DNA of 64,000 nt from Delphinus delphis. Its lineage: Eukaryota; Chordata; Mammalia; Artiodactyla; Delphinidae. The notes below the pieces were generated by a model, which saw only the letters and a program-made list of their open reading frames with translations, was not told the DNA's origin and made no database searches. This document shows, one piece after another, positions 2,037 through 40,709 of the stretch (positions are counted from its first letter, which is position 1; each line of letters begins with the position of its first letter). The stretch covers positions 120,199,838 to 120,263,837 of the forward strand of contig NC_082687.1 of the NCBI RefSeq assembly GCF_949987515.2, in the 5' to 3' direction. Both the position numbers and the translations under genes were made by a program.

Positions 2037-2105
2037 GTCCCCCTCCTATCCCTGCAGAACCTATTGTTTCACCTGAACCAGTATATGTTTCAAAAGTACA
2101 TTATG
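2037..2105 (+). CDS. ADAD1: ADAD1 exon: proline-rich linker between dsRBD and deaminase-like domain
   Basis: The exon follows the acceptor TTTACAG (ends 2036). It enters in phase 1 (a G comes from the previous exon) and encodes G-PPPIPAEPIVSPEPVYV then SKVHY plus one base, 23 codons in all. This matches the linker of ADAD1 between its dsRNA-binding domain and its deaminase-like domain. The end at 2105 is fixed by the next exon (6705), which needs one carried base to read EGRHIQF as in other mammals. At that junction the genome reads TATG/GAAGGA, so the intron does not begin with GT. No normal donor in the correct phase lies within the exon. The exon is 69 bases and symmetric (phase 1 in, phase 1 out), so skipping it would not shift the frame. 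Its coding content is intact; its splicing is in doubt. Confidence 0.85.
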
Positions 2106-2111
2106 GAAGGA
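2106..2111 (+). promoter_or_regulatory. ADAD1: Degenerate 5' splice site of the ADAD1 linker exon (GA instead of GT)
   Basis: The bases after the expected exon end are GAAGGA. Restoring one T would give GTAAGG, a strong donor, so a one-base deletion is the simplest history (inference; I cannot see the ancestral sequence). The other seven ADAD1 introns whose sites are visible start with GT. Confidence 0.7.
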
Positions 2112-2132
2112 AAGTCCTTTATGATAATTTTT

Positions 2133-2446
2133 TTTTTTTTAAGAAGATATTTGAGGGTAGGAATTTATTAATTAATTTATTTTTGCTGTGTTGGGTCTTC
2201 GTTTCTGTGCGAGGGCTTTCTCTAGTTGTGGCAAGCAGGGGCCACTCTTCATCGTGGCGCGTGGGCCTCTCACTGTTGCGGCCTCTCTTGTTGCGGAGCA
2301 CAGGCTCCAGATGTGCAGGCTCAGTAGTTGTGGCTCACAGGCCTAGTTGCTCCGCGGCATGTGGGATCCTCCCAGACCAGGGCTCGAACCCATGTCCCCT
2401 GCATTAGCAGGCAGATTCTCAACCACTGTGCCACCAGGGAAGCCCC
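2133..2446 (-). mobile_element. CHR-type tRNA-derived SINE (long form) just downstream of the ADAD1 linker exon
   Basis: The reversed tRNA-derived head (GCCACCAGGGAAGCCC) ends near 2446 and the T-rich tail faces the exon. The flanking direct repeat TATGATAATTTTT occurs at 2120-2132 and 2447-2459. It may extend through AAGAAGAT if the T run has changed length. The insertion point is 14 bases beyond the exon end. The plus strand of the SINE is open in the exon's reading frame until about 2407. Its left edge holds a GT at 2157-2158 that could act as a donor. Confidence 0.9.
2157..2162 (+). promoter_or_regulatory. ADAD1: Candidate cryptic 5' splice site supplied by the SINE junction
   Basis: The sequence is AGG/GTAGGA. 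Using it would extend the linker exon by 51 bases (2106-2156), with no stop and with phase 1 kept, so it would join the exon at 6705 in frame and add 17 residues. It matches the donor consensus at -3, -1, +1, +2, +3 and +5 but not at -2, +4 or +6. It is a prediction only; the 13-T run at 2128-2140 inside the added segment would be prone to slippage. Confidence 0.35.
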
Positions 2447-2459
2447 TATGATAATTTTT

Positions 2460-2834
2460 AAAGAAGATTAACCCAATTAAAAATTATAACAGCATATAAT
2501 TAAAATATGCATAGGTATGAAAATGTACATTAGTATTTTATTATTCAAACCTGTCACACTTCAACAAAGATGAGTATTTCCTTCCATACTCTGCTAAAAA
2601 TTAGAGAGATAATAAAATTGGAGAGGAACTACTGAAGAAGTGGTTTCTTTCCTATAAAGAGACGGCTTATCAATATCATATAACTGCTTTTTTGAGAACT
2701 CTTTGCTTCGGTGGGCCGGTCATTAATGAAATCCAGTGGCTTTCTGGTGCTTGATGGTTGGGGTATTCATTTCAAGTAATCTATTCACTTTCTTTTAATG
2801 TTAGTTATTTGTCACTCAAGCCCAAAGAAAACTA
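2460..2834. other. ADAD1 intron, nothing recognised
   Basis: Low-GC intronic DNA without a named repeat or coding signal. Confidence 0.5.
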
Positions 2835-6704: not shown

Positions 6705-6830
6705 AAGGGAGACATATTCAGTTTGCGAAGATTTCACAGATCGTTAAAGGAACATTTTATCAACTAGTTTCTAATCATTCAGAGTATCTGAAATGTAGCA
6801 ACTCATTAGCTGCTTTTATAATTGAAAGAG
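6705..6830 (+). CDS. ADAD1: ADAD1 exon: start of the deaminase-like domain
   Basis: The exon lies between acceptor CTAG (6701-6704) and donor G/GTAAGT (6831). With the carried G it encodes [14 protein letters not shown], then [16 protein letters not shown], then [12 protein letters not shown], 42 codons ending in phase 1. This is the opening helix region of the ADAR-type deaminase domain, where the conserved LAAFIIER stretch precedes the first core strand. The reading starts in phase 1, which fixes where the previous exon must end. Splice sites are strong and I see no damage. Confidence 0.95.
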
Positions 6831-13817: not shown

Positions 13818-13941
13818 CTGGACAGCGCGAAGTTGTAGCTATAGGCACAGGTGAATACAATTATAGTCAGTGCATTAAGCCAAATGGAAGAGTGTTGCAC
13901 GATACTCATGCTGTTGTTACGGCAAGGAGATCTCTCCTTAG
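13818..13941 (+). CDS. ADAD1: ADAD1 exon: core of the deaminase-like domain (HAV in place of HAE)
   Basis: The exon lies between acceptor CTTTCAG (13811-13817) and donor AG/GTAAGG (13942). It encodes [19 protein letters not shown], then [20 protein letters not shown] and LL, ending in phase 2. In ADAR enzymes this region reads D-C-H-A-E, where His binds zinc and Glu shuttles protons. Here His is kept (CAT at 13907-13909), but the Glu position is Val (GTT at 13913-13915). The following ARR matches the Arg pair that contacts inositol hexakisphosphate in ADAR2 (family knowledge). The product should fold but not deaminate, as is typical of ADAD1. Confidence 0.97.
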
Positions 13942-15742: not shown

Positions 15743-15913
15743 GTACTTTTATAGACAACTTCTACTCTTCTACAGCAAAAATCCTGCTGTGTTGGAAAAA
15801 TCAATATTTTGTACAGAACCAGCTTCTAATCTACTCACTCTCAAGCAGAATATCAACATTTATCTCTATATGAACCAGTTGCCTAAAGGATCAGCCCAGA
15901 TTAAGTCACAATT
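15743..15913 (+). CDS. ADAD1: ADAD1 exon: deaminase-like domain, lost zinc ligand region
   Basis: The exon follows acceptor TTTTAG and precedes donor TT/GTAAGT (15914). The carried AG plus G gives Arg, then [56 protein letters not shown] and two bases of the next Leu (57 codons). In ADARs the strand LYISTSPCGDA supplies a zinc-binding Cys; here the matching text is [11 protein letters not shown], with Lys (AAA at 15885-15887) in the Cys position. Phase 1 in (two carried bases), phase 2 out. Confidence 0.96.
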
Positions 15914-17128: not shown

Positions 17129-17358
17129 GCGTCTTAATCCATGTTCTGTATCTGCATTTGAAGCCCATGAAGAGCTGAGTCTCCATGTGGCTGTTGAAGG
17201 CAAAATTCATCTGACTGTCTACTGCCCTGCAGATGTTGTTAATAGAATAAGCAGCATGGCCTCAAGTGACAAACTGATGAGATGGGGAGTGCTTGGTGTA
17301 CAGGGAGCATTGCTGAGTCAGTTTATACAGCCAGTTTATATCAGCAATATACTTGTTG
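17129..17358 (+). CDS. ADAD1: ADAD1 exon: deaminase-like domain with SSDK in place of CSDK
   Basis: The exon lies between acceptor TTCTGTAG (17121-17128) and donor G/GTGAGT (17359). It encodes 76 full codons starting [16 protein letters not shown] and ending [11 protein letters not shown], phase 1 out. The segment [20 protein letters not shown] aligns with ADAR text around SMSCSDKIARW: the second zinc-binding Cys is Ser (TCA at 17262-17264), while the Lys, Arg and Trp that follow are kept. The pyrimidine tract CTCTCTTTTCTTTCTGTAG is intact despite the L1 fragment just upstream. Confidence 0.97.
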
Positions 17359-26768: not shown

Positions 26769-27006
26769 GTGATGGGAATTGCAGTGATACTAGAGGCTTA
26801 GAAATTGCTATAAAGCAACGTGTTGATGATGCACTCACTTCAAAACTTCCAATGTTTTACTTGGTCAACAGACCTCATATTAGTTTAGTACCTTCTGCAT
26901 ATCCATGTCAAACAAACTTGGAATATAAATTCCTGAGTCTGAATTGGGCACAAGGGGACATTTCTTTGGAGATTGTGGATGGCCTAACTGGGAAGACCAC
27001 CGAAAG
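26769..27006 (+). CDS. ADAD1: ADAD1 exon: deaminase-like domain, central/C-terminal strands
   Basis: The exon lies between acceptor TTTCTAG and donor AG/GTTAGT (27007), the latter being the weakest GT donor of the visible set. It encodes [19 protein letters not shown], then [60 protein letters not shown] and two bases of the next codon. The NWAQGD and EIVDGLTGK phrases are the ADAR-family block near the end of the deaminase fold. Phase 1 in, phase 2 out; no damage seen. Confidence 0.97.
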
Positions 27007-31121: not shown

Positions 31122-31254
31122 TTCCCCATTTAAAAGTGGTGTGTCAATGGCAAGTCGGCTTTGTAAGGCTGCAATGTTAAGTCGATTTAACCTGCTTGCC
31201 AAAGAAGCTGAAAAAGAAGATTTACTTGAAGCTAGTACATATCATGCAGCTAAG
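31122..31254 (+). CDS. ADAD1: ADAD1 penultimate coding exon
   Basis: Acceptor CTACTTCAG (31113-31121), donor AAG/GTAAGT (31255). The carried AG plus T gives Ser, then [40 protein letters not shown] and HAAK, ending in phase 0. This is the helical C-terminal part of the deaminase-like domain. The '[13 protein letters not shown]' block is family-typical. Intact. Confidence 0.97.
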
Positions 31255-40595: not shown

Positions 40596-40709
40596 CATAT
40601 GTCTGGATCCTATCAAGAAGCTAAAACTTTGTTGAAATCCTACTTACAGCAGCATGGCTATGGCTCCTGGATTGTGAAATCTCCCTGTATAGAGCAATTT
40701 AGTATGTGA
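40596..40709 (+). CDS. ADAD1: ADAD1 terminal exon with stop codon
   Basis: Acceptor CTTTCTGTAG (40586-40595). It encodes [20 protein letters not shown], then [17 protein letters not shown] and TGA (40707-40709), 37 codons plus stop. The YQxAK motif and the G-x-G-x-W-I-x-K block match the ADAR C-terminus that lines the inositol-phosphate pocket (family knowledge). The protein ends at the usual place for ADAD1. Intact. Confidence 0.97.

Follow-up and report, generated by a model that had tools for sequence, protein, structure and literature searches.

The window, by which we mean the whole stretch of DNA that was analysed (64,000 nt), contains the last eight exons of ADAD1 on the + strand, with starts at 2037, 6705, 13818, 15743, 17129, 26769, 31122 and 40596; the part of the gene that codes for the double-stranded RNA-binding domain (Pfam dsrm) lies upstream of it. 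ADAD1 has been described as testis-specific, and mouse Adad1 mutants as male-sterile (PMC7360552). No paper on ADAD1 in cetaceans or dolphins was found in the library searched. The source of the window is probably an oceanic dolphin, to judge by the agreement of its ADAD1 protein with a Sousa chinensis record, which is complete, and with those of two other delphinids, which is nearly so. The coding exons in the window are:

2037..2105, + strand: ADAD1 exon, 69 bases, phase 1-1, acceptor AG at 2035-2036
6705..6830, + strand: following ADAD1 exon (EGRHIQFAK...), with intact acceptor and GT donor
13818..13941, + strand: ADAD1 exon, from the splice and frame check
15743..15913, + strand: ADAD1 exon, from the splice and frame check
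17129..17358, + strand: ADAD1 exon, from the splice and frame check
26769..27006, + strand: ADAD1 exon, from the splice and frame check
31122..31254, + strand: ADAD1 exon, from the splice and frame check
40596..40709, + strand: last ADAD1 exon, coding part to the stop TGA at 40707-40709

All eight exons are preceded by an AG acceptor, and joined in the native manner they read through 401 residues without interruption before the stop is reached. The six internal exons other than the 69-base exon all end in a GT donor, whereas the exon at 2037-2105 ends TATG/GA, as the sequence-only reading had held. Since these six donors, the eight acceptors and the reading frame are intact, ADAD1 appears to be maintained. 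The identity of the gene was further supported by a Sousa chinensis protein record (P0001, DBR06_SOUSAS2410022), which carries the Pfam domains dsrm and A_deamin and whose last 418 residues correspond to the window model; among the matches listed for the native junction (120 of 1060), names were ADAD1, "hypothetical protein" or uninformative. IL2, a gene expected downstream of ADAD1, was not found in the window when a bovine sequence served as query at E values up to 1. A 19-base exon pattern turned up in six bacteria-titled and two viral contigs; in a blastn comparison with the window (E 1e-3), five of these eight shared no more than 21-22 exact bases with it and the remaining three nothing.

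A missing donor and a SINE in the following intron

Together with one base of the upstream exon, the 69-base exon codes for GPPPIPAEPIVSPEPVYVSKVHY, part of the linker between the two domains, and its translation is identical to that in delphinid ADAD1 records. The following features surround its 3' end:

2106..2107, + strand: former donor position, now GA (ATG/GAAGGA, score -3.44)
2106..2156, + strand: 51 bases by which the exon would be extended, coding for 17 residues (GRKVLYDNFFFFKKIFE), open and in frame with 6705
2120..2148, + strand: left target-site duplication, TATGATAA-T13-AAGAAGAT, 29 bases
2128..2140, + strand: T13 run within the putative coding extension, read from the sequence
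2149..2446, - strand: tRNA-derived SINE of 298 bases with its A-rich tail at the 2149 side, a target-site duplication, a weak tRNA match and further copies in the window
2157..2158, + strand: candidate donor AGG/GTAGGA in the SINE tail, score 6.19
2447..2468, + strand: right target-site duplication, TATGATAA-T5-AAAGAAGAT, 22 bases

Donor scores were calculated with a weight matrix of textbook values and not with one trained for this analysis. Hypothetical ancestral donors score 9.47 (with one more T) or 6.51 (with A changed to T), against -3.44 for the present sequence, and the site was presumably a GT before it was lost by a substitution or by loss of a single base. The records of Sagmatias obliquidens and Lagenorhynchus albirostris, both of which we take to be delphinids, have the native junction, and on this account the loss looks young; as far as protein records go, they suggest that it is lineage-specific.

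The SINE now begins 43 bases into the former intron. Both of its ends are flanked by the duplication, the two copies of which are alike except in their T/A run; this reads T13 A2 on the left (2128-2142) and T5 A3 on the right (2455-2462), a length difference of 7 bases. The putative tRNA-like head gave a weak match to the full tRNA model (2369-2440, - strand, 19.4 bits, E 0.17), below the Rfam gathering score of 29. The family is repeated: blastn matched the element elsewhere in the window eight times, at 77-88% identity, two of these matches being adjoining pieces. In its A-rich tail, its target-site duplication and its putative tRNA-like head the element resembles, in general outline, the CHR-type tRNA-derived SINEs of cetaceans. 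The window has a single copy of the 15-base tail segment that carries the GT, which says little, because seven of the eight other SINE matches stop short of the tail.

The GT at 2157-2158 (AGG/GTAGGA) lies within the inserted sequence, so that the SINE origin proposed for it in the sequence-only reading is borne out; it had been placed at the left edge of the insertion and does belong to the SINE tail, but the insertion begins at 2149 and eight inserted bases precede the GT. Its score of 6.19 tops those of all other GT and GC sites between 2037 and 2479, the next being 4.57 at 2361, and falls below that of every one of the six other ADAD1 donors (7.08, 8.41, 8.61, 10.01, 11.76 and 12.63). Six sites in this interval score above 0, and only those at 2157 and 2361 are in phase. 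The site at 2361 is open up to the donor itself and was rejected, as its join to 6705 creates a stop at the junction (residue 109). Use of 2157, by contrast, would lengthen the exon by 51 bases with no stop and join it in frame to the exon at 6705, giving the protein junction VHY-GRKVLYDNFFFFKKIFE-EGR and an extended model of 418 residues over the window; phase, length and the 17 added residues between VHY and EGR are all as had been claimed.

The frequency with which such a donor arises by chance was estimated from arbitrary anchor positions in the window, by a test picked after the case had been seen. An equally good, in-phase and stop-free donor lay within 60 bases downstream of 243 of 9043 anchors on the + strand (2.7%) and 172 of 9058 on the - strand (1.9%), and cut-offs relaxed to 4.5 and 3.0 raised the count to 548 (6.1%) and 927 (10.3%) of 9043. 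A donor like that at 2157 is thus uncommon by chance, on a test that is post hoc.

The 51 added bases comprise 14 of old intron, 29 of the left target-site duplication and 8 of the SINE. With only eight of them SINE-derived, what the element supplies is a donor and not exonised SINE sequence; the sequence-only reading had the letters right and reasoned soundly from them, but its label of SINE exonisation is too strong. The extension also includes the T13 run, and when run lengths from T9 to T17 were tried, the frame was kept by T10, T13 and T16 only, T9, T11, T12, T14, T15 and T17 all leading to early stops. This run is our main reason for doubting that use of 2157 is settled. If the left duplication had the length of the right copy when the SINE arrived, the extension would then have been 44 bases long and out of frame; with the same original length, and if the old donor has since lost a T, it would have been 45 bases long and in frame.

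In the Sousa chinensis protein the inserted residues fall between dsrm (97-164) and A_deamin (268-588), where a change of length would be most easily tolerated. An AlphaFold2 model of this protein, built with 70 sequences, was too poor for use (mean pLDDT 43.6, pTM 0.34); residues 168-224 around the insert have pLDDT below 50, as does much of the deaminase domain.

The junction in protein records of relatives

Two queries, one for the native junction (120 matches listed of 1060) and one with region 165-262 of the Sousa chinensis protein (99 hits of 115 candidates), together yielded 129 different records. As these are cluster representatives and include several isoforms, the counts below refer to models and not to species, and Tursiops or Orcinus may sit inside clusters. 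Alignment of the 129 listed records placed 107 with the native junction, 8 without the exon, 1 (Kogia) with replaced residues, 11 in which the exon is present but the anchor in the following exon is missing, and 2 with a flagged insert. One of these two is the Sousa chinensis record, whose last 418 residues are identical to the extended window model (418/418); the other, from tuatara (P0119), proved to be an alignment artefact in a divergent linker with 0 of 5 insert words. None of the other 128 listed records matches any of the five insert words.

Thirteen of the listed records are cetacean. VHY is joined directly to EGR in nine (Sagmatias, Lagenorhynchus albirostris, Neophocaena, two Phocoena, Monodon, Lipotes, Balaenoptera and Mesoplodon), the insert is present in Sousa, and the remaining three are without the exon's residues: Physeter (P0023), bmy_02489T0, whose label we take to denote the bowhead, and Kogia (P0018), which has 12 other residues at this place. 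Neither the Physeter nor the Kogia model is labelled as an isoform, and judging from these two models there may have been a separate loss of the exon in the sperm-whale branch. Elsewhere in the gene, two further delphinids (P0002 and P0003) are listed with isoforms that are without the first 11 residues of the exon 15743-15913 (15743-15775), a pattern in the records that suggests an alternative acceptor within this exon.

The weight to be given to the Sousa chinensis model depends on how it was made. The underlying Platanus assembly was presumably built from short reads. The published account gives it a contig N50 of 67 kb and describes gene prediction by GeneWise from cow, Tursiops, Orcinus and Balaena proteins, supplemented with a published transcriptome for which the title in the reference list names leucocytes (PMC6531461). 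A homology-based prediction aided by leucocyte RNA is weak evidence on the splicing of a testis-specific gene, and the junction in this model probably reflects a predictor in need of a GT. Near residue 121, in a part of the protein encoded outside the window, the Sousa model reads TTGKCNVMG where P0002 and P0003 read TTGNVMG, which again hints at splice junctions that were predicted and not observed. What the record does establish is that the same genomic sequence, or the same assembly as that of the window, underlies a public record.

Possible fates of the exon

The explanation that we favour is that in one oceanic-dolphin lineage the native donor of the 69-base linker exon was lost, and that a SINE inserted in reverse orientation, 43 bases into the intron, brought a GT in its tail. 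The spliceosome would take this GT, and the linker that separates the dsRNA-binding from the deaminase-like domain would become 17 residues longer; part of the transcripts would probably skip the exon, also in frame. We give slightly less than an even chance to the central claim, that a substantial share of testis transcripts, at the least, is spliced at the GT at 2157. In its favour, the native GT is gone while the rest of the gene is intact, and the SINE GT is the best local donor, in phase and followed back to the exon by an open frame; the Sousa chinensis gene model, for what a prediction is worth, has exactly this junction. Against it stand its score, below those of the gene's six other donors in the window, the T13 run in the extension, the availability of in-frame skipping, and a chance frequency of 6-10% at the laxer cut-offs. 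A bolder proposal is that ADAD1 came to depend on the SINE-tail donor, with the GA fixed, the SINE GT as the main donor and selection on T13 holding the frame, so that the length of the T run would modulate output and male fertility; this we consider unlikely.

The principal alternative is that exon definition fails in the absence of a donor and the exon is skipped altogether, the upstream exon being joined to 6705 with loss of 23 linker residues and the SINE GT an unused coincidence. We regard this as possible though rather doubtful. It is as simple an outcome as use of 2157, both keeping the frame: the exon has 69 bases and phase 1-1, so that its omission as an in-frame cassette leaves the frame open to the end, although the upstream exon lies outside the window and its phase was deduced from proteins. 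The low score of 2157 relative to the other donors of the gene also favours skipping, as do the 8 of 129 listed records without the exon, which run from ETS (ELS in P0082) directly into EGR, ERR, DGR or EVR; these are themselves gene models, however, and are set against 107 listed records with the native junction and 11 more that contain the exon. The GA could instead have arisen by mistake in sequencing or assembly, or could belong to an allele that is rare in a species with GT. The GA was seen in one assembly, which the Sousa record may share, and the T13 run is close by, but GGAAGGA contains no homopolymer and the remaining coding sequence is free of frame-breaking errors, and we hold this to be improbable.

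Least probable of all, in our view, is that splicing continues at the native site, which would then act as the donor of a GA-AG intron and leave the protein unchanged (VHY-EGR). Introns of this type are very rare in mammals. GAAGGA does retain the A at +3 and the G at +5, and the nearest upstream GT in the dolphin exon is at 2096, 10 bases away. GA-AG introns have been reported in human FGFR genes and ITPR1, but recognition of the GA in the FGF receptors is described as dependent on a GT located 6 bases before it and on two intronic sequences further downstream (PMC4176328).

Relation to known systems

When a donor is lost through human splice mutations, either the best nearby donor is used or the exon is skipped. 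The situation in ADAD1 resembles such cryptic donor activation in that a GT has been lost and a nearby donor or skipping could take its place; it differs in that the outcome would be established in a lineage, with the frame kept. A second parallel comes from mammalian genes in which transposable elements, chiefly Alu, have been exonised; the present case shares with them an antisense intronic SINE from which a coding gene gains a potential splice signal (PMC2879366). The cases described there are new exons within introns, whereas in ADAD1 an existing exon whose own donor is gone would be lengthened, and the SINE-derived part would amount to eight exon bases and the donor. If real, this would add a case specific to one lineage to a process that is already known.

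Given the male sterility of mouse Adad1 mutants (PMC7360552), loss of a splice site in ADAD1 should be costly unless the site is replaced. If the exon is skipped, this would suggest that the corresponding part of the linker is dispensable; if the GT at 2157 is used, the locus would be a natural example of a fertility gene in which an exon has been rescued by a retroposon.
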